Assembly: GCF_024128855.1 (NCBI RefSeq)
Contig: NZ_JAMYDV010000027.1
Span: forward strand, 1-32,014
Source of the DNA: Rhodovulum tesquicola
GTDB taxonomy: Bacteria; Pseudomonadota; Alphaproteobacteria; Rhodobacterales; Rhodobacteraceae
Direction of reading: 5' to 3'
Length of the DNA stretch: 32,014 nucleotides
Part shown: one piece after another, positions 1,439-22,145 of the stretch
Numbering within the stretch: position 1 is the first letter of the stretch
How the letters are laid out: the number at the start of each line of letters is the position of its first letter
Position numbers and translations under genes: made by a program
The notes under the pieces: generated by a model
Database searches by the model: none
What the model was told of the DNA's origin: nothing
What the model saw: the letters and a program-made list of their open reading frames with translations, nothing else

Positions 1439-1672
1439 TCAGCGCCGACGCACCGAGTTGCCGCCTGCGAGGATGTTGTTGATCAGCGCGGCCACGGCGG
1501 CGTTCAGCGCATCCTTTTCGCCCGGCGGGGCGAATTCGTGCGCTGCGGCGGCATCCTTCAGGACGCCGACGATCTCCCTCTCGGGCAGGATATTGTGGTC
1601 ATTGAGCGCGAGCAGGAGCGACTCGCAGATGGCGAGTGCGGCGGTTCCGGCGATGTCGTTGGGAACGGTCAT
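1439..1672 (-). CDS. Conserved small alphaproteobacterial protein (77 aa)
   Basis: The protein reads MTVPNDIAGTAALAICESLL and continues with ALNDHNILPEREIVGVLKDA, ending ALINNILAGGNSVRRR. I recognise this as a short conserved hypothetical common in Alphaproteobacteria; no function is established to my knowledge. It is mostly helical and soluble. The ATG at 1672 was chosen because conserved sequence starts there; the frame runs open to 1852 but the extra residues look like untranslated leader. It is divergent from the Crp/Fnr gene. A perfect GGAAC-N16-CGTT site reading leftward lies about 57 bases upstream of the start, so general-stress control by an EcfG-type sigma is likely. Confidence 0.75.
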   Translation of the reverse strand: MTVPNDIAGTAALAICESLLLALNDHNILPEREIVGVLKDAAAAHEFAPPGEKDALNAAVAALINNILAGGNSVRRR

Positions 1673-1726: not shown

Positions 1727-1753
1727 GGAACGTTCCGGTAGCATAGGCGTTCC
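1727..1753. promoter_or_regulatory. Palindromic bidirectional EcfG-type promoter
   Basis: On the plus strand GGAAC (1727-1731) is followed after exactly 16 bases by CGTT (1748-1751). On the minus strand GGAAC (1753-1749) is followed after exactly 16 bases by CGTT (1732-1729). Both match the established EcfG consensus GGAAC-N16/17-CGTT. The two promoters occupy the same 27 bases and face the divergent genes at 1672 (-) and 1851 (+). Confidence 0.75.
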
Positions 1754-1850: not shown

Positions 1851-2582
1851 ATGCTGATGCTGCAAAGCCCGCTGACACGAAAGCTCGCGGCCTATGTCGC
1901 CCTGTCGGGCGCCGATCTGGAGACTCTGGCGCGCCTGCACAGGCGCCGACGGAGCTTTCAGTCCGGTCACGAGCTGATCCATGAGGGGCAGGGCAGGGCC
2001 TCGGCCTTCATCCTGTCCGAAGGCTGGGCGTACTCCTACAAGCTTCTGCCGGATGGCGGGCGGCAGATCGTCGATTTTCATATCCCCGGCGACTTCCTCG
2101 GGCTGCGCAGCATCCTTTTCCGGACCGCCGATCATTCCATCGAGGCCATAACCCGCATTGAGGCGACCGAGGTCCTGGCCCCGGACATCCTGGATGCCTT
2201 TGCCGAGGCCCCGCGTCTGGCCACCGCCGTCCTCTGGGCGGCATCGCGCGACGAGGCGGTGGTGGTGGAGCATCTGGTCAACGTCGGTCGGCGTTCGGCT
2301 GAGGAGCGCATGGCGCATTTCCTGCTGGAACTCGGGGCGCGGCTGGCCCTCGTGGGGGCGGGCGACCGGACCGGTTTCGATTGCCCGCTGACGCAATATC
2401 ACCTCGCCGATGCGTTGGGGCTGAGCGCGGTGCATGTCAACCGCGTGCTGCGCCACCTGCGCGAGGAGGGCCTCGTGACCTTCCGGAACGGGCGCGTGGA
2501 CTTCGACGATTTCGACAGGCTCAAGAAGGTCGCCGCGTTCGACACCGGCTATCTCGATCAGGACGGCCCGCTGCTGCGCTGA
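1851..2582 (+). CDS. Crp/Fnr family transcriptional regulator
   Basis: The protein has 243 aa. Residues about 25-115 form a cyclic-nucleotide-binding-type jelly roll (LIHEGQGRASAFILSEGWAY, then PDGGRQIVDFHIPGDFLGL), followed by the dimer helix and a winged helix-turn-helix with the recognition segment LSAVHVNRVLRHLREEGLVT (191-210). It lacks the Cys cluster of FNR, so an oxygen-sensing iron-sulfur cluster is unlikely; the ligand is unknown. The ATG at 1851 has GGAG ten bases upstream; an in-frame ATG at 1857 is an alternative. It is divergent from the 77-aa gene, sharing a palindromic EcfG-type promoter about 100 bases upstream, and convergent with the 64-aa gene. A broken paralogue of its C-terminal 53 residues (38 of 53 identical by my alignment) is fused to a transposase at 25811-26419. 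Confidence 0.93.
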   Translation: MLMLQSPLTRKLAAYVALSGADLETLARLHRRRRSFQSGHELIHEGQGRASAFILSEGWAYSYKLLPDGGRQIVDFHIPGDFLGLRSILFRTADHSIEAITRIEATEVLAPDILDAFAEAPRLATAVLWAASRDEAVVVEHLVNVGRRSAEERMAHFLLELGARLALVGAGDRTGFDCPLTQYHLADALGLSAVHVNRVLRHLREEGLVTFRNGRVDFDDFDRLKKVAAFDTGYLDQDGPLLR

Positions 2583-2627: not shown

Positions 2628-2822
2628 TTATGCCAGCGCGCGGGCGGCTGCGTCCAGTTCGCGGCTGCACTCGCTGTCGTGCTTTGCGGCCATGGCCTTC
2701 TCGGCCGCCTGATAATGCTTCAGCGCGGCGTCCTTCTTCGGTCCGGCGGGCGCCTTGTCCCAGGCCGCCTTGACGTACTTCATCTTCTCGGCGGTGCCGG
2801 GTACGGGGGATTTCGCGTCCAT
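2628..2822 (-). CDS. Small helical conserved protein (64 aa), copy 1
   Basis: The protein starts MDAKSPVPGTAEKMKYVKAA and has the conserved core WDKAPAGPKKDAALKHYQAA, then a charged helix ending RELDAAARALA. It is predicted soluble and largely alpha-helical. I recognise the core as a short conserved hypothetical of Rhodobacterales-type genomes; function unknown. A paralogue with an almost identical core lies at 26223-26666, also convergent with a Crp/Fnr sequence, so this gene pair is a conserved module. AAGGA lies about ten bases before the chosen ATG; the frame is open further upstream but only the part from 2822 resembles the paralogue. Confidence 0.85.
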   Translation of the reverse strand: MDAKSPVPGTAEKMKYVKAAWDKAPAGPKKDAALKHYQAAEKAMAAKHDSECSRELDAAARALA

Positions 2823-2862
2823 GGGCTTCGTCCTTGCTGGGTCTGCCCGAATTGACGAAGCC

Positions 2863-2903
2863 TCCCTGCCGGGCCGGACCAGTGCCCGGTTGCCGAGCAG
2901 GGA
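2863..2903 (-). promoter_or_regulatory. Nested hairpin in the leader of the 64-aa gene
   Basis: An outer stem TCCCTGC (2863-2869) with GCAGGGA (2897-2903) encloses a GC-rich inner stem-loop (CCGGGC/GCCCGG). It begins 41 bases upstream of the start codon. The paralogue at 26666 also has a hairpin upstream (26700-26752). A leader or operator role is inference only. Confidence 0.3.
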
Positions 2904-3102
2904 AGCCTCGCCGTCGCTTGAAACAGACAACCGACGGCGGAATATGGTGCCGTCATGAACACCCTACCGACGCTTCTCGCGGGTGGTACTGACGTAGGTT
3001 GGCGTCGCACGGATTAGTGTCGCCACGATCCATGACCCCCGGAAAAGCGATGGGGCCGGGGTTGCCCCCGGCCCTCGCCACTGTCGCAACCGACTTCTGA
3101 GT

Positions 3103-3747
3103 TCAGTTGGTCGGTGTGATCACGATCTCGACCCGGCGGTTCTGCGCCCGGCCGGCGGCGGTCGCATTGGACGTGATCGGCTCGTAGAAGCCGCGCCCGG
3201 AGACCGTGATCCGCGACGCGGCGGTCCCGGCGGCGATGAGCTCGCGCGCCACCGCCATCGCCCGCTCCTGGCTGAGCTGGTTGTTGTAGGCCGCCGAGCC
3301 GACATTGTCGGTGTGCCCCACCACGCGGACCGTCGAGGCCGGATGCTGCCGCAGACTGTCCGATACCGCTCGCAGCGCCGGACGGAACCCCGGATCGACC
3401 ACCGACGACGCGGTGCGGAACGTGACCGCCTCCGGCAGGATGACCCGAAGCTGGGATCCGGTGTTGGTGATGTCGGCTCCGGTGCCGGCAAGCGAGCTTC
3501 GCAACTCCCGTTCCTGCGCTGCCATCTGCGCCCCGATGGCGCCGCCGACGGCCGCTCCGACCGCGCCGCCGATGACCGTCGCCCGGGTATTGCCGCCGAT
3601 GACCTGGCCTGCTGCGGCCCCGGTCAGCCCGCCGATGGTCGCGCCGGTCCCGGGCTGGTTGTACGAACCGTCGGGATTGGTGCACCCCGCCAGTGTCAGC
3701 GCTGCCGCCGTGATGGCAATCGCGATAGTCCTTCCATATCCGCCCAT
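3103..3747 (-). CDS. OmpA-family lipoprotein with glycine-zipper domain
   Basis: The protein has 214 aa. Residues 1-22 form a lipoprotein signal ending in the lipobox LAGC (Cys22). A glycine-zipper stretch follows (GATIGGLTGAAAGQVIGG, then AVGAAVGGAIGAQM). The C-terminal half, about residues 95-212, is an OmpA-like peptidoglycan-binding domain with GHTDN, NNQLSQERA and GRAQNRRVEI. It should sit in the outer membrane with its C-terminus on peptidoglycan, as YiaD/Pal-like proteins do, tying envelope layers together. The ATG at 3747 gives a proper signal peptide; a longer frame to 3837 adds non-signal residues. It stands alone between the 64-aa gene and the large glucan synthase, both on the same strand, with 280 bases on one side and 270 on the other. 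Confidence 0.92.
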   Translation of the reverse strand: MGGYGRTIAIAITAAALTLAGCTNPDGSYNQPGTGATIGGLTGAAAGQVIGGNTRATVIGGAVGAAVGGAIGAQMAAQERELRSSLAGTGADITNTGSQLRVILPEAVTFRTASSVVDPGFRPALRAVSDSLRQHPASTVRVVGHTDNVGSAAYNNQLSQERAMAVARELIAAGTAASRITVSGRGFYEPITSNATAAGRAQNRRVEIVITPTN

Positions 3748-13032: not shown

Positions 13033-13057
13033 GGAACGCGCCCTGCTACCGCGCGTT
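13033..13057 (+). promoter_or_regulatory. EcfG-type promoter of the PRC-barrel gene
   Basis: GGAAC (13033-13037) is followed after exactly 16 bases by CGTT (13054-13057), a perfect match to the EcfG consensus. The start codon of the exported PRC-barrel protein lies 65 bases downstream. Confidence 0.72.
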
Positions 13058-13121: not shown

Positions 13122-13997
13122 ATGAAACGGCTTCTTTCAACCACCGCGCTTGCGCTGGCGCTTGGCTTGCCTTCTGCGATTCTGGCCCAGAGCACGCCCG
13201 CTCCCGAGCGCGCGACGCAGAGCCAGAGCGCCAGCATGGCGGGGTTTCTGAGCCAGCGGGACCAATCCGACCTCTTCGCATCCGAACTGATGGGCCATGA
13301 TGTCCATGCGCGTCGGGTATCCGCAGACGCTTCGGCAGCAAGAACCGGGGCCATGGCTACGGTCAGCCGGGCCGATCTGGACGAAATGGACAACATCGGC
13401 CAGATCAACGAGATCGTGCTGTCGCATGACGGTCAGGTCCGCGCCATCGTGATCGGCGTCGGCGGCTTTCTTGGCATGGGCGAGCGCGATGTGGCGGTCA
13501 CGATGGATCAGGTGACGTTCGCCTCCGATCCCGAAGATCGCGCGCAGATGCATGTCATCGTGAATGTCGCAGCGGAGATGCTCGAAGGCTCCCCTGCCTA
13601 TGACCGTTCGTCGATGATAGACGGCGGGCCGATGGACCGGACCGGCGCGGCCACGACCAACCGCACGTCACTTGACCGGCCGGAGATGACCCGCGACGGG
13701 TACAATCTGGTCGATGCGACGCGCGTCACGACCGAAATGCTGGTCGGCGCGACGGTGTATGACCCGTCAGACACATCTGTGGGGACGGTCGAAAAGCTGG
13801 TCCTCGATGCTGACGGGGCGATCACGAACTTGATCATCGATTTCGGCGGTTTCCTGGGGATAGGCTCGCACCAGGTGTCGGTGCGCTTCGACGATCTGAC
13901 GATCTTTTCGAACGACCGCGCCACCGACATGCGCATCTACGTGGATGCCACCAAGAAGCAGATCGAGGCCCTGCCGCAGTACCAGGCGATGAACTGA
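13122..13997 (+). CDS. Exported protein with two PRC-barrel domains
   Basis: The protein has 291 aa with a signal peptide ending AILA before Gln23, so it is periplasmic. Two PRC-barrel-type repeats follow, about residues 75-150 (IGQINEIVLSHDGQVRAIVI, then GGFLGMGERDV) and 205-285 (VGTVEKLVLDADG, then GGFLGIGSHQVSV). Such proteins are common in Alphaproteobacteria, often stress-induced; the biochemical role is unknown. The ATG at 13122 has GGAGG eight bases upstream. A perfect GGAAC-N16-CGTT promoter lies 65 bases before the start, so control by an EcfG-type sigma is likely. The gene ends at a strong terminator and faces a second, cytoplasmic PRC-barrel gene that also has such a promoter. Confidence 0.9.
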   Translation: MKRLLSTTALALALGLPSAILAQSTPAPERATQSQSASMAGFLSQRDQSDLFASELMGHDVHARRVSADASAARTGAMATVSRADLDEMDNIGQINEIVLSHDGQVRAIVIGVGGFLGMGERDVAVTMDQVTFASDPEDRAQMHVIVNVAAEMLEGSPAYDRSSMIDGGPMDRTGAATTNRTSLDRPEMTRDGYNLVDATRVTTEMLVGATVYDPSDTSVGTVEKLVLDADGAITNLIIDFGGFLGIGSHQVSVRFDDLTIFSNDRATDMRIYVDATKKQIEALPQYQAMN

Positions 13998-14100: not shown

Positions 14101-14460
14101 TCAACCGCCGTGATGCGGCATAGCCTTCAGCTTGTCCTTGGTGGTGTCCATGTGAACGCGCACATCGGACCCGCCGGTTGCCCGCAGCACCGTGAGGTCG
14201 CCGAAGGGGACCAGCACCGAATGCGCGCCGATGCCGAGGAAACCGCCGACATCGATCACGGCCGCGGTGATCCGGCCCTCCGATCCGATCTTGAGCGCGC
14301 TGACCGAGCCGATGGACTCGTCCTCGCGGCCATAGACCTTGGCGCCTTCCAGATCCGACGACTTCAGCTCGTGGACTGCCGCCTTGGCATACCCGTCGCG
14401 GGCAAAGGCGTGGGTGCCGCCGCCGGACGCGCCGGTGGGTGTGGTTGTGGTGGGTGTCAT
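14101..14460 (-). CDS. PRC-barrel domain protein (119 aa)
   Basis: A Thr/Pro/Gly-rich start (MTPTTTTPTGASGGG) is followed by one PRC-barrel domain, about residues 33-112 (LKSSDLEGAKVYGREDESIG, then IDVGGFLGIGAHSVLVPFGD). No signal peptide is seen, so it is predicted cytoplasmic. The domain resembles the repeats of the protein at 13122, with the shared VGGFLGIG and DATKK/DTTKD-like tail, suggesting common ancestry. GGGAG lies eight bases before the ATG at 14460; a longer frame to 14634 is not supported. A perfect GGAAC-N16-CGTT promoter reading leftward lies at 14633-14657, leaving a leader of about 165 bases. Confidence 0.9.
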   Translation of the reverse strand: MTPTTTTPTGASGGGTHAFARDGYAKAAVHELKSSDLEGAKVYGREDESIGSVSALKIGSEGRITAAVIDVGGFLGIGAHSVLVPFGDLTVLRATGGSDVRVHMDTTKDKLKAMPHHGG

Positions 14461-14632: not shown

Positions 14633-14657
14633 AACGCCGCAGCGCAGGGGACGTTCC
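14633..14657 (-). promoter_or_regulatory. EcfG-type promoter of the 119-aa PRC-barrel gene
   Basis: On the minus strand GGAAC (14657-14653) is followed after exactly 16 bases by CGTT (14636-14633). It lies between the end of the esterase gene (14673) and the PRC-barrel start (14460), so it can drive only the latter. The implied leader is unusually long. Confidence 0.65.
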
Positions 14658-16067: not shown

Positions 16068-19000
16068 CTAGACGCCCGGCAGTCCGGCTGCCAGCGCCAG
16101 CCGGACGAGGTCCGGCAGCGAGGTGGCTCCGGTCTTGCGCATCACCGCCGCCCGGTGGTTCTCGACCGTGCGCTGGTTGATGCCGAGGTCGGCGGCGATG
16201 ATCTTGTTCGGCGCGCCCTCCAGCACCCTGGCCAGAACCTCGCGTTCGCGCGGCGTGAGATCGGCGAAGGATTTCAGCGCGATGCGCCGGGCACCGTGAC
16301 GGGCGCGATCGTCGATCGCCTGGTCGAGGGCCTGCCCGATGCTGGCCAGGAGATCCGCCGCGCTGGCCGGTTTCTCGATCAGATCCGCGGCGCCCGCCTT
16401 CATCGCGCTCACGGCCATGGCCGTGTCGCCACTTCCCGTCAGCATCACCGCAGGCAGGGACGAGCGCTCCGCCCGCAAGGCCTCCAGCAGCGCCACACCG
16501 CCCATGCCGGGCAACCGGTCGTCGATGACCAGACAGGCCCTGGCGCCCGGACGGGGAGCGGCCAGAAATGCCTCGGCCGACGGGTAGGTGACCACATTCG
16601 ATCCCTCGGCCTCGAACAGGCGACGGGTGGCCTCGCGCACCATGGGGTCGTCGTCCACGATGTGCACTGTCGCCTGGTCGGCCGCAGAGCCGGCGAGGTG
16701 TTGCGCCCGGGCTGCCCCGGCGCCCTGCAGCAGGGCGGCGATCCGGTCCAGCAGCACGTCGGGCAGGACGGGCTTGGCGATCTGCACGAAGGGAGTTCCC
16801 GCGATCTCGCGCATCGTCGCGGCCGTGATGTCGCCGGTCAGGATGATGGTCGGGATGCCATGGCCCAGAACCCGAGGCAGATCCTGCGCCAGCGACAGCC
16901 CCGACGCACCGCCATGCAGGTCGAAATCCGTCAGCAGCAGGTCGGGCGGCGCCGCGGCCCGGGTGGCCCAGGCCAGGGCATCCGGCGCGTTGGCCATGGC
17001 GACGACGCTGTGTCCCTCGGCCGTGAGCGCACGGGCAAGCAACTGACGGAGTTCGTCCTCGTCCTCGACCAGCAGGATCGTGCCGGTCTGTCGGCCACCC
17101 TCGACCGGCGCTGTGTCCGCCAGCGCTGCAGGCTCGGCTGCGGCCAGCGGAAGCGTGACCATGAAGGTCGATCCCTTGCCCTGGACCGACCGGACATCCA
17201 CCGGATGAGCCAGCAGGTCCGCCAGCCGCTGGACGATCGACAGCCCCAGCCCGAGGCCCTGCGCGGCCAGGAACGCAGGCTGCTCGCCCCGATGATAGGC
17301 GTCGAAGATCGCCTTGCGCTCGGACGCGGCCACACCGATGCCGCTGTCGCAGACCTGAATCGTCAGACGGTCGCCGCGGATGCGGCATCCCATCACGATG
17401 CCGCCCCTCGGCGTGTATTTCACCGCATTCGACAAGAGGTTGCGTAGCATCTGCTCAAGAAGCTGCGGATCGGTCCGCACCCAGGCCTTGCTCGGCACCA
17501 CCCGCAGCTTCAGCCCCTTCATCTCGCACAGCGGCGCGAACTCGTCGGCAAGACGCGCCATGAGCGGGGCAACCGCGATGGCCCGCACCTGCGGCCGCAC
17601 GATGCCGGCCTCGATGCGGTTCACGTCGAGCAGCGCGTCAAGCATTTCGGTCATCGTCTTCAGCGTGCGGTCCAGCAGCGCCGCCAGCCGCAGCGCCTCG
17701 GCTCCCTTGCGGCCGCGCGTCATCAGCTCGTGCAGCAGAGCCAACGACTGCAACGGCTGGCGCAGGTCGTGGCTGGCGGCGGCGAGGAACCGCGACTTCG
17801 CAAGCGTCGCGCGGTCGGCCTCCCGCCGGGCGGCGACGAGTTCCTCATGCGTGCACTTGTTCTCGGTGATGTCGACGAAGGTGATCACCACGCCTTCGAC
17901 CCGCCCGCCATCGGCGCGATAGGGCTGGACCCGGCGCAGATACCAGATGCCCCCGGCGCCGGCGATCTCGCGTTCGATCGGGCTTGCCGTCGCCAGGACC
18001 GCGGCCGCGTCGGCGGCAAGATTGGTGTCGCTCGACAGGGCCGCCAGATCGGACAGCGGCCGGCCGATGTCGGTCGGTATGACATTGAAAACCGCGCGGG
18101 CGGTTGGCGTGAAGAACCGGATGTTCAGGGCGCGGTCAAGGAAGATCGTCGCCACATCGGTGCTGTAGAGCACGTTCTGCAGGTCGTTCGCGGTGGTGCG
18201 GTGGCGTTCAACGGTCTCCTGCAACTGGGCGTTCAGCGCGGTCAGCTCCTCGTTGAGCGCCTGCAACTCCTCCTTCGAGGCGAGCAGCTCCTCGTTGGTC
18301 GACTGGAACTCCTCGTTGACCGACAGCGCCTCGGCGGTGTCGGCGGCGTGGCCCTCGACCTCCTGTTCCAGTTCGCGCAGGGCGTCGCTGAGATCGTTGC
18401 GGGTCGCCTCCAGATCGGCTTCGAGTTCGACGATGCGCGATGCGGCATTCGCCGCCCCGGGCGCATCGGCCAGCGACCCGGTCGCCGCGGGCGGGTCCTC
18501 GAGGAAGCAGGCGAGCAGCAGGTCTTCCTTGCCGGCCTGGACGGCGCGCAGCTCGATATTGAACCGGCCCTCGCGCGTCGAGCGTCCGCCGGGAACGACG
18601 ACGACCGGATTCGCGGCGTCGCAGGACGCCGCCGCCGTGCGGAACCGTGCGTGCAGCGTCCGGGGCAGCATACCCAGAAAGCCCGGATCGGGGTGGCCCT
18701 GCGTGACGCTGAGATAGCGTTCGGTCGGGCCCAGCAGAAAGAGACAGTCGAACCGGCGGTTCATCAGCACGGCCGCGGGCGCGTAATTCTCCAGAACGAC
18801 CCGCCGGCACAGCTCCGCGAGGGAGGTCCTGCGACTTGGCTTCGGGTAGGCCTCGACGGGCCTCGCGGTCCGCGCGCCGGCTGCGACATGCAGATCGCCC
18901 GGCCGACCGGGGCCGACGCAGCGCCAGAGCCGGGCGTCCTTGTGGGCGACCTCGAAGCTGCCATCTTCCGGCCCGGGCGTTTCGGCAGCCCCCAGCAGCA

Positions 19001-20384
19001 AAAGGCCGCTCGGACGCAACGAGAATGCGCATAGCCCGATCACCCGCCGCTGCGCCTCCGGCTCCAGATAGATCAGCACGTTGCGGCACGACAGCAGGTC
19101 GATGCGCGAGAACGGCGGGTCGGACAGCAGGTCCGCCACGGTGAAGACGATCACGTCACGCAGTTCCGGCCGGACCCGCCAGCCGCCCGCCTCGGCCTCG
19201 AAGAACCGTGCAAGCCGCGCGGGCGATACCACGCCTGCGATGTCGGCGGGATAGAACCCCTCGCGGGCGGTGGCCACCGCGTCGGCGTCGATGTCCGAGG
19301 CGAAGACCTGAAGGCCGACCTTCGAGCCTGCCGCTTCCAGCGCCTCGATGCAGAGCATGGCCAGGCTGTAGGCCTCCTCGCCGGTGCTGCATCCGGCCAC
19401 CCAGACTCGCAGCGGCCGGTCGGCGGGCTGGGATGCGATCAGTTCGGGCAGGGCTGTCGCGCCGAGGTGCTCGAACACGCCCGGATCGCGGAAGAAGCTC
19501 GTGACATGGATCAGCAGATCGGCCGTCAGCCGCGCAAGCTCGGTGCTGTCGGCGCGCAGCATCGTCAGATACCGCTCCGTCTCGTACGGCCCACAGCCAG
19601 CCATCGCCATGCGACGGGCGATGCGGCGCTTGATCGTTCCAGTCTTGTACAGCGTCACATCCTGAGGGGCCGTTTCCGCGACGAGCGAGATGATGGCATC
19701 GAAGTCCCGCTTCGCCCCCGGCCCCGCAGCGCCGGGCGTCACGGCTGTCCGACCCGCGCCGGCCTTCGCGACTCCTGATGGGTTCGCCACAGCCCCGGCG
19801 GCCAGCTGACCCAGCACCGCCGGCATGTCCGCGATGCCCAGGACGTGATCCACGAGACCGGTGGCAATGGCGCTGTCCGGCATGCCGGAATACCCGGCCT
19901 CCTTCGGGTCCTGCGCAAGGATCAGCCCGCCTGCGTCATGGATGGCGCGCAGCCCGCCGCTGCCGTCCGTGCCGGTCCCCGAAAGCACGATGCAGGCCAG
20001 CGGCGATGACGCCTGCCGTGCCAGAGACTGCAACAGCACGTCGAAGGGCAGGCGCACCGCCTTGCCGCGCTCGGGGGCAGGGGTGTGGAGAACGCCGTTC
20101 TCGACGGTCAGAAAGACGCCCGGCGGGATGACATACAGATGGGCAGGCCGCAGCGTCATGCCCTCGGCGGCCAGAACCACCGACAAGGCGGTGTCCCGTG
20201 CCAGAAGGTCGACCATCATGCTGTCATGCGACGGGTCGAGGTGCAGGACCAGCACGAAGGCCGCCTGCATGTCGCCTGGCATCGCCTTCAACAGCGCCCG
20301 GCATGCCTCGAGCCCGCCTGCGGATGCGCCGATGGCAACGATGGGGAGCGCAGGACCGGGCGTTCGAGCGCGCTCATTCGACAT
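16068..20384 (-). CDS. CheB-CheR-PAS hybrid histidine kinase fused to a FixJ-type response regulator
   Basis: A single 1438-aa frame without interruption. Order: CheB methylesterase (about 10-190; GASAGG Ser21, His48, TGTDG Asp140); CheR methyltransferase (about 224-470; AGCSTGEEAYS, RNVLIYL); a long coiled coil (about 648-740; NEEFQSTNEELLASKEELQ); PAS (about 733-842); HisKA with SHDLRQPL (His872); HATPase (NLLSNAVKYTP, DSGIG, GLGLGL); a first REC domain (about 1100-1220, Asp1153); a second REC (about 1236-1355, IDDRLPGMGG, Asp1288); and a LuxR/FixJ helix-turn-helix (about 1372-1435, LTPREREVLARVLEG). CheB-CheR-PAS kinases are known in many bacteria; the FixJ regulator is normally a separate protein. 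The catalytic residues look intact, so the protein could sense, relay phosphate and bind DNA. It has no membrane segment. It is divergent from the ECF sigma gene, with about 840 bases between. Confidence 0.93.
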   Translation of the reverse strand: MSNERARTPGPALPIVAIGASAGGLEACRALLKAMPGDMQAAFVLVLHLDPSHDSMMVDLLARDTALSVVLAAEGMTLRPAHLYVIPPGVFLTVENGVLHTPAPERGKAVRLPFDVLLQSLARQASSPLACIVLSGTGTDGSGGLRAIHDAGGLILAQDPKEAGYSGMPDSAIATGLVDHVLGIADMPAVLGQLAAGAVANPSGVAKAGAGRTAVTPGAAGPGAKRDFDAIISLVAETAPQDVTLYKTGTIKRRIARRMAMAGCGPYETERYLTMLRADSTELARLTADLLIHVTSFFRDPGVFEHLGATALPELIASQPADRPLRVWVAGCSTGEEAYSLAMLCIEALEAAGSKVGLQVFASDIDADAVATAREGFYPADIAGVVSPARLARFFEAEAGGWRVRPELRDVIVFTVADLLSDPPFSRIDLLSCRNVLIYLEPEAQRRVIGLCAFSLRPSGLLLLGAAETPGPEDGSFEVAHKDARLWRCVGPGRPGDLHVAAGARTARPVEAYPKPSRRTSLAELCRRVVLENYAPAAVLMNRRFDCLFLLGPTERYLSVTQGHPDPGFLGMLPRTLHARFRTAAASCDAANPVVVVPGGRSTREGRFNIELRAVQAGKEDLLLACFLEDPPAATGSLADAPGAANAASRIVELEADLEATRNDLSDALRELEQEVEGHAADTAEALSVNEEFQSTNEELLASKEELQALNEELTALNAQLQETVERHRTTANDLQNVLYSTDVATIFLDRALNIRFFTPTARAVFNVIPTDIGRPLSDLAALSSDTNLAADAAAVLATASPIEREIAGAGGIWYLRRVQPYRADGGRVEGVVITFVDITENKCTHEELVAARREADRATLAKSRFLAAASHDLRQPLQSLALLHELMTRGRKGAEALRLAALLDRTLKTMTEMLDALLDVNRIEAGIVRPQVRAIAVAPLMARLADEFAPLCEMKGLKLRVVPSKAWVRTDPQLLEQMLRNLLSNAVKYTPRGGIVMGCRIRGDRLTIQVCDSGIGVAASERKAIFDAYHRGEQPAFLAAQGLGLGLSIVQRLADLLAHPVDVRSVQGKGSTFMVTLPLAAAEPAALADTAPVEGGRQTGTILLVEDEDELRQLLARALTAEGHSVVAMANAPDALAWATRAAAPPDLLLTDFDLHGGASGLSLAQDLPRVLGHGIPTIILTGDITAATMREIAGTPFVQIAKPVLPDVLLDRIAALLQGAGAARAQHLAGSAADQATVHIVDDDPMVREATRRLFEAEGSNVVTYPSAEAFLAAPRPGARACLVIDDRLPGMGGVALLEALRAERSSLPAVMLTGSGDTAMAVSAMKAGAADLIEKPASAADLLASIGQALDQAIDDRARHGARRIALKSFADLTPREREVLARVLEGAPNKIIAADLGINQRTVENHRAAVMRKTGATSLPDLVRLALAAGLPGV

Positions 20385-21223: not shown

Positions 21224-21793
21224 ATGATTGACGTCCATCCGTTTCATTTCCTCCTGCCGCCGCAGGCCGCGGTCCTGTTTCGCTTCGCCCTCAGGCTTGC
21301 CGCCGACGAGACTCGGGCCGAGGACCTGGTTCAGGAGACCTTCCTCAAGGCCTGGGCGAATCGCGACAGTTTCACGCCCGGCACCGAACTGAGGGGGTGG
21401 CTGTTCACCATCCTTCGCAACACGTTCTATTCCAGCCTCCGCAAGCACATACGCGAGGTGGAGGACGTGGACGGCAGACTTGCGGCGCTGCTCTTCGAGG
21501 AAGCGGCGCAGGAGCATTCCGTCGACCTGAACAAGCTGATTTCGGCCATGGCAAGGCTCCCCGAAATCCACCGTCGGCCGGTCGTCCTCATGGGGGCATA
21601 CGGATTTTCGCAGCAGGAAGCGGCCGATGCCTGCAACTGCGCCGTCGGCACGATCAAGAGCCGCGTCAGTCGCGGACGGTCCGAACTCGGCCGTGCATTC
21701 GGTCGCGACCCGGTGGAGCCCCACGGAACGATCACGCACCCGGGGCCGTTGGCAGACCGGCATGTCGGGGCTTGCATGAGCGAAACGCCCTGA
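21224..21793 (+). CDS. ECF sigma factor, EcfG/RpoE2-like (general stress response)
   Basis: The protein has 189 aa with sigma region 2 (about 15-85: DLVQETFLKAWANRDSFTPG, then GWLFTILRNTFYSSLRKHIR and REVEDVDG) and region 4 (about 107-155: GFSQQEAADACNCAVGTIKS). The pattern RDSF-PGT-WLFTILRN-FYS-RK-REVEDxDG matches EcfG-type (ECF15) sigma factors such as RpoE2 of Sinorhizobium, which recognise GGAAC-N16/17-CGTT. Several such sites occur in this window. In known systems activity is set by NepR and PhyR; neither is seen here. The ATG at 21224 begins the conserved part, with GGAAAGG about 13 bases upstream. The C-terminal 30 residues beyond region 4 are not conserved. It is followed 25 bases later by a 108-aa gene. 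Confidence 0.85.
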   Translation: MIDVHPFHFLLPPQAAVLFRFALRLAADETRAEDLVQETFLKAWANRDSFTPGTELRGWLFTILRNTFYSSLRKHIREVEDVDGRLAALLFEEAAQEHSVDLNKLISAMARLPEIHRRPVVLMGAYGFSQQEAADACNCAVGTIKSRVSRGRSELGRAFGRDPVEPHGTITHPGPLADRHVGACMSETP

Positions 21794-21818: not shown

Positions 21819-22145
21819 ATGGAACGAGCGGACACCGAGAAGGACACCCTGATCATGGATCGTTCGATGCTCCTGCGGAGGGCAAGGGCTCCGCGGCTGC
21901 GGGCACGCTCCCTGGCCGAGTTGCGAGACCTGTCCGCGGCGCTCTCCGATGCCTGTGCGGCGTCCAAGGCGGACGCCCTGCGGAACATACGCGCCCGTTG
22001 GGCCGATGCTCCGGAAGAGGCCGACGAAAGCACATGCGGCTTCGCAGATCTCTTTGCCGCGCTTCGCCGCGTGCGAGCCGAACTCCAGCGTCGTCAGGAC
22101 GAGAGGGCGGCCGCTGCGCAACGGACCCTGGCCCTGGATCGCTAG
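21819..22145 (+). CDS. Unrecognised 108-aa protein co-transcribed with the ECF sigma gene
   Basis: The protein starts MERADTEKDTLIMDRSMLLR and is rich in Arg, Ala and Leu with likely long helices (SLAELRDLSAALSDACAA; LFAALRRVRAELQRRQDE). There is no membrane segment and no zinc-binding anti-sigma HxxxCxxC motif, and I see no NepR signature. AGGAG six or seven bases before ATG 21819 supports this start; ATG 21855 is an alternative. It follows the sigma gene by 25 bases on the same strand, the place where a sigma regulator is often found, so an accessory role in sigma control is possible but unproven. Confidence 0.65.
   Translation: MERADTEKDTLIMDRSMLLRRARAPRLRARSLAELRDLSAALSDACAASKADALRNIRARWADAPEEADESTCGFADLFAALRRVRAELQRRQDERAAAAQRTLALDR

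Follow-up and report, generated by a model that had tools for sequence, protein, structure and literature searches.

The general stress response of Alphaproteobacteria is normally defined by PhyR-NepR control. EcfG (ECF15) promoters carry the motif GGAAC-N16-CGTT, as described for Rhizobium etli and Sphingopyxis granuli (PMC3892343; PMC7083833), and in Sphingomonas melonis a Crp-type gene and a PRC-barrel gene, both with GGAAC-type motifs, are reported among the top EcfG-dependent genes (PMC6599016). R. etli also has a non-canonical EcfG2, an EcfG-like sigma factor encoded away from phyR and nepR, in addition to a canonical set (PMC3892343). For promoters working in two directions, the closest described systems are those of Escherichia coli, in which Warman and co-workers described pseudo-symmetrical DNA that accommodates polymerase in two mutually exclusive orientations (PMC12825309). 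These are sigma-70 promoters with a shared -10 element, and the distance between their two starts is commonly 10, 18 or 23 bp. Their direction can be biased by adding a CRP site: when placed at -40.5 or -60.5 of one direction of an overlapping divergent promoter, such a site activates that direction and blocks the other (PMC12825309). A search of one open-access collection of papers found none combining EcfG with the term “bidirectional promoter.”

We analyzed a stretch of 32,014 nucleotides from Rhodovulum tesquicola (hereafter, the window) that carries a 27-bp inverted repeat at positions 1727–1753, GGAACGTTCCGGTAGCATAGGCGTTCC. Its two 6-bp arms, GGAACG and CGTTCC, are separated by 15 bp, and the repeat matches the EcfG consensus perfectly in each direction. 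The original prediction that GGAAC-N16-CGTT is complete on both strands within the same 27 bases agreed with our pattern search, which placed one match at 1727–1751 on the plus strand and the other at 1753–1729 on the minus strand. The further statement that the -35 element of one site contains the -10 of the other was right in that the elements overlap, but each -10 has just 3 bases in common with the opposite -35 and does not lie wholly inside it. The locus thus has the exact motif of known EcfG promoters and differs from them by the inverted repeat and by a sigma-70-type promoter that overlaps it on the other strand. It resembles the E. coli promoters in its symmetry, whereas here the -35 overlaps the other -10, there is no shared symmetrical -10, and about 36 bp separate the predicted starts.

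As originally described, the repeat is located between two divergent genes, one encoding a conserved 77-aa protein (1439–1672, minus strand) and the other a Crp/Fnr-family regulator with cNMP-binding and Crp-type HTH domains (1851–2582, plus strand; Pfam PF00027 and PF13545), referred to below as crp. The best segment of the Crp/Fnr protein was 100% identical in R. steppense and 92% identical in R. strictum. At E 0.01, the 77-aa protein matched no family in Pfam or NCBIfam. The pairing of the two genes is old: of 80 orthologous crp loci, 74 also have the 77-aa gene, which within the genus Rhodovulum is present in 7/16 genomes. Small stress-type genes cluster around the pair at 727–1350 and 2628–3747 (CsbD, DUF3309, an OmpA/glycine-zipper lipoprotein, and short unnamed proteins), and parts of this cluster recur around the pair in several relatives.

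The reading that we favor, and consider rather likely, places two promoters head-on over each other: an EcfG promoter driving crp, and an ordinary promoter for the 77-aa gene that probably depends on Crp. A sigma-70-type -10 element for the latter, TATGCT, lies inside the EcfG spacer (1740–1745, minus strand). Beside the repeat, a Crp/Fnr-like operator, CTGATCGAGAGCAG (1767–1780; consensus CTGAT-NNAN-AGCAG), is near-invariant upstream of crp: 77 of 81 upstream sequences contained one scoring at least 9 of 10.5, located 68–116 bp before the matched start, and L081, L082, L092, and L116 were those without a recognizable operator. We aligned 41 orthologous loci on this operator, leaving out of the column counts L042, where the contig ends, and counting apart a second group, whose upstream region differs (L083–L119, 35 usable of 37). 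The minus-strand -10 element starts 28 bp from the operator center in 38/41 loci, including all nine with an EcfG site. Class II Crp/Fnr promoters have their operator centered near -41.5, and the 28-bp spacing fits this geometry, with the operator near -41 of the predicted 77-aa transcript; the 77-aa promoter is therefore read here as probably Crp-dependent. The exact operator consensus occurs twice in the genome and the single other match is inside a coding frame, which fits local autoregulation; the operator at 1767–1780 is probably bound by the adjacent Crp/Fnr protein. Neither this operator nor the absence of PhyR and NepR matches described below had been part of the original prediction.

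The site reading toward crp (1727–1751, plus strand) comprises a -35 GGAAC at 1727–1731 and a -10 CGTT at 1748–1751, from which a crp transcription start would be expected near 1757–1760. GGAAC-N15-17-CGTT in this orientation was recovered in 8 of the 41 aligned loci and was absent at these spacings from the other 33. The eight loci are the window, L040 (R. steppense), L041 (R. strictum), L048, L051, L061, L062, and L072, five of them outside Rhodovulum; L044 carries the site with an N18 spacing. On the Crp tree, the EcfG-site label (L044 included) required five changes, at least two of which were forced by well-supported branches.

The distribution of the plus-strand site was associated with that of an orphan EcfG-type sigma factor gene, a predictor picked after the data had been seen. 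The site was present in 7/12 genomes with this gene versus 1/24 without (Fisher p = 0.0006), in 5/10 versus 1/24 when the three Rhodovulum were treated as one (p = 0.005), and in 2/24 of the genomes without the gene when the N18 site of L044 was counted (p = 0.002). The presence of PhyR, considered as a predictor of the CGTT box, gave no separation of the loci, whereas the orphan gene separated them. Two other -10-like boxes occur on the plus strand, 16 bp before the operator center (21/41 loci) and about 29 bp after it (19/41); both were absent from 7/9 loci with the site (including L044) versus 8/32 of the others (p = 0.006). These association tests were framed post hoc, with respect both to the positions of the -10 boxes and to the grouping of sigma factors, and they ignore kinship among the genomes. 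Five of the 12 genomes with the orphan gene had no CGTT box in the crp copies examined (L077 has GGTT), and the orphan gene was not found in L072, a MAG carrying the site; several of the genomes are MAGs, in which absences may be gaps. We also considered RpoHII as a reader of the site and rejected it, as the -35 reported for this factor stresses TTG and not GGAAC (PMC3441632). With consensus and spacing both matching, and with an EcfG-type sigma factor encoded in the genome and in the window itself, the original assignment of an EcfG-type promoter site stands, and an EcfG promoter reading toward crp appears fairly well supported by these comparisons.

The likely reader of the plus-strand site is encoded at 21224–21793 (plus strand). 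We classified this protein as an EcfG-type sigma factor from its similarity to PhyR-adjacent EcfG-type proteins: it shows 42–45% identity over its length with four such proteins encoded beside PhyR in other Rhodobacteraceae. Its best NCBIfam model was PRK12547 (“RNA polymerase sigma factor”), which scored below the cut-off and does not name EcfG, and its best solved relative was 5uxx. Relatives with 59–68% identity were found in nine further genomes. The orphan class, as defined here, consists of 13 distinct matches in 12 genomes that are nearer to the sigma factor of the window than to the four canonical ones; none of the 19 further sigma matches that we checked was nearer to it than to the canonical ones. 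The sigma gene is on the same contig as crp in both R. steppense and R. strictum, at a distance of about 19 kb, and in the genome of L062 the two are separated by about 1.5 kb.

A Rhodobacteraceae PhyR query that matched 8/16 Rhodovulum genomes gave no match in the R. tesquicola genome at E 1e-8; the other eight genomes of the genus likewise do not match. The PF22233 and PF22029 matches in the genome, in three places, corresponded by eye to ECF sigma factors that lack a receiver domain. For NepR, a short and variable protein, the genome had no match to PF18557, a model of just 35 positions. In contrast to the alphaproteobacterial EcfG response, PhyR and NepR are undetected in this genome, in which the EcfG-type sigma gene is an orphan copy. 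The situation is similar to that of EcfG2 in R. etli, which is encoded away from phyR and nepR, except that the canonical set is also present in that species (PMC3892343) and that the orphan is the only EcfG-type factor found here. This points to lineages in which an EcfG-type sigma factor and its promoters have been retained without PhyR-NepR control.

Two neighbors of the sigma gene could be related to its regulation. Directly downstream is a gene for a 108-aa protein without a Pfam family (21819–22145, plus strand), whose relatives (38–50% identity) adjoin the related sigma gene in 5/10 loci; it is a candidate partner of the orphan sigma, as an anti-sigma factor or another regulator. In the divergent direction, a 1438-aa frame (16068–20384, minus strand) includes CheB-like, histidine kinase, and response regulator parts with a FixJ-like end, and its product is a possible sensor for the orphan sigma.

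GGAAC-N15-18-CGTT matched six times in the window, two of the matches being those of the palindrome, against 0.68 expected. A second perfect EcfG site (13033–13057, plus strand) is located 65 bp before a PRC-barrel gene (13122–13997) and a third (14633–14657, minus strand) upstream of another PRC-barrel gene (14101–14460, minus strand). Neither site differs in sequence in R. strictum or R. steppense, and in R. strictum all 25 bases of the 13033–13057 site are kept within a flank that is 90% identical. CsbD genes are typical EcfG targets, and a perfect EcfG site lies just before a CsbD gene on contig C45. Over the whole genome, the N16 sites were modestly enriched (37 versus 18 modeled, and versus 25.6 per spacing over N10–22, with 333 sites for 13 spacings), and we consider this enrichment to be weak as proof of EcfG use. 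Our own codon test scored 12 of 46 N16-17 places below 6.5, the other 34 looking like coding sequence, and we did not rely on the enrichment.

The mirror site toward the 77-aa gene (1729–1753, minus strand; -35 at 1753–1749 and -10 at 1732–1729) has a much narrower distribution than the plus-strand site. We recovered it in perfect form in just 3/41 aligned loci, all from Rhodovulum (the window, R. steppense, and R. strictum), so that the palindrome is present in 3/7 genomes of the genus having the 77-aa gene. Conservation of the repeat in orthologous loci, a check named beforehand in the original prediction, was thus largely not observed outside three close species. The idea that both strands act as EcfG promoters, one or the other orientation of polymerase producing either crp or 77-aa mRNA and never both at once, would be the more novel result if true. 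Consensus and spacing are perfect on both strands, the divergent genes are at sensible distances on either side, and both arms are kept in the three Rhodovulum although the spacer varies: the three repeats have 3 variable positions of 27 bp, all in the spacer, which is weak evidence. However, these three close genomes, with most of their intergenic sequence in common, carry little weight, and a different -10 element, conserved and of sigma-70 type, serves the 77-aa gene in nearly all the aligned loci. We therefore regard a true bidirectional EcfG promoter as fairly doubtful. The specific form of it in which the 27-bp site is used both ways in Rhodovulum, as a stress-induced choice between crp and the 77-aa gene biased by the regulator via its operator, seems unlikely to us. 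In that form, the operator would occupy about +9 to +22 in one transcript and be near -51 relative to the other, and the site would be a bidirectional ECF promoter with full overlap, its -35 and -10 elements exchanging roles. The mirror EcfG reading is probably a by-product of the near self-complementarity of EcfG elements: CGTTCC is what GGAACG reads on the opposite strand, so that any EcfG site in which a G follows GGAAC turns into a palindrome once CGTT is followed by CC. Since the -35 and -10 elements of EcfG promoters are nearly mutual reverse complements, mirror sites arise easily, and evidence beyond the consensus is needed to interpret them. A quasi-palindrome (template-switch) origin of the right arm is possible; the flanks are much diverged in L042, the next relative.

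The repeat was also compared with what is expected by chance. A search of the window for GGAACGN{12,15}CGTTCC gave a single occurrence, and 100 dinucleotide shuffles gave none. Simulation of 150 Mb from the first-order Markov statistics of the window produced the N16 palindrome form 24 times, equivalent to 0.005 in 32 kb and 0.56 in 3.52 Mb, and palindromic pairs with the site spacings N15–18 taken together amounted to 0.020 and 2.2, respectively. The genome contains four such pairs (C1:360307, N15; C7:86670, N17; C11:60470, N17; and that of the window, C27:1727, N16) versus the 2.2 modeled. The repeat is thus unexpected at 1727–1753 and yet is no genome-wide specialty, the palindromic pairs being near chance and not clearly enriched. 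Two of the other pairs are within frames, C1 inside a strong coding frame and C7 inside a 406-codon open frame of middling score, which also argues against a true bidirectional EcfG promoter, whereas the C11 pair, which looks intergenic by eye and has a low coding score, would be in favor of it. The latter (C11:60470–60497, L189), a second palindromic EcfG site with N17 on both strands, lies about 50 bp before a small lipoprotein-like frame on the minus strand.

These near-chance numbers could suggest that the repeat is functional in neither direction, as could the presence of GGAAC at the same place in many loci without the CGTT box. GGAAC is also kept in L056, L058, and L073, loci of genomes without an EcfG-type match, in which it may have some other role, a point against the reading that we favor. 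Against such an absence of function, the one-sided EcfG form recurs in several lineages, the plus-strand site is linked with the orphan EcfG-type gene, and the other -10 boxes are correspondingly absent; we consider chance to be an improbable explanation. It is still harder to credit that the inverted repeat serves as the operator of some dimeric regulator, and not as a promoter, and that its match to EcfG is incidental, which we view as very improbable. The perfect 6-bp arms would suit such a regulator, and the window and L041 have in common the self-complementary 10-mer GGAACGTTCC, but we rejected this 10-mer as an operator, since it is lost in L040. In addition, none of the other 38 aligned loci has the repeat, five of them having the one-sided EcfG form, and a far better conserved operator adjoins it.

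Returning to the head-on overlap of an EcfG promoter for crp with the promoter of the 77-aa gene, we infer the sigma factors used, the binding of the Crp/Fnr protein, the start sites, and the direction of regulation from the observed sequences, their conservation, and their co-occurrence. The core conserved in the family would be the operator at 1767–1780, situated at about -41 of an older, sigma-70-type promoter driving the 77-aa gene leftwards; the Crp/Fnr protein of the adjacent gene would bind this operator and activate the 77-aa gene. Overlaid on this core, in Rhodovulum and several other lineages, an EcfG-type promoter would drive crp rightwards, its plus-strand site being recognized by the orphan EcfG-type sigma, whose gene is 20 kb distant. 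Both promoters would face each other within the same 27 bp, with one of them occupied at a time. In the crp transcript made from the EcfG promoter, the operator would span about +9 to +22, so that the stress-made Crp/Fnr protein would block its own EcfG promoter. The predicted outcome is an ordered hand-over from the stress sigma to crp, and then to the 77-aa gene with crp switched off. The original view that two polymerases could hardly use the site together is in line with the overlap of the elements between divergent genes, and the either/or switch that it proposed remains plausible, although between two sigma factors and not with EcfG in both directions. If the overlap works as proposed, a stress sigma factor and the housekeeping polymerase would compete head-on on a short piece of DNA, and the product of one direction would decide the next step.

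The second group of crp-type loci that was counted apart (L083–L119) has the same operator, with a TATGCT box directly before it. In several of these loci the upstream DNA is nearly identical across Paracoccus, Tabrizicola, Arenibacterium, and Oceanicola, and such near-identity in different genera suggests recent horizontal transfer.
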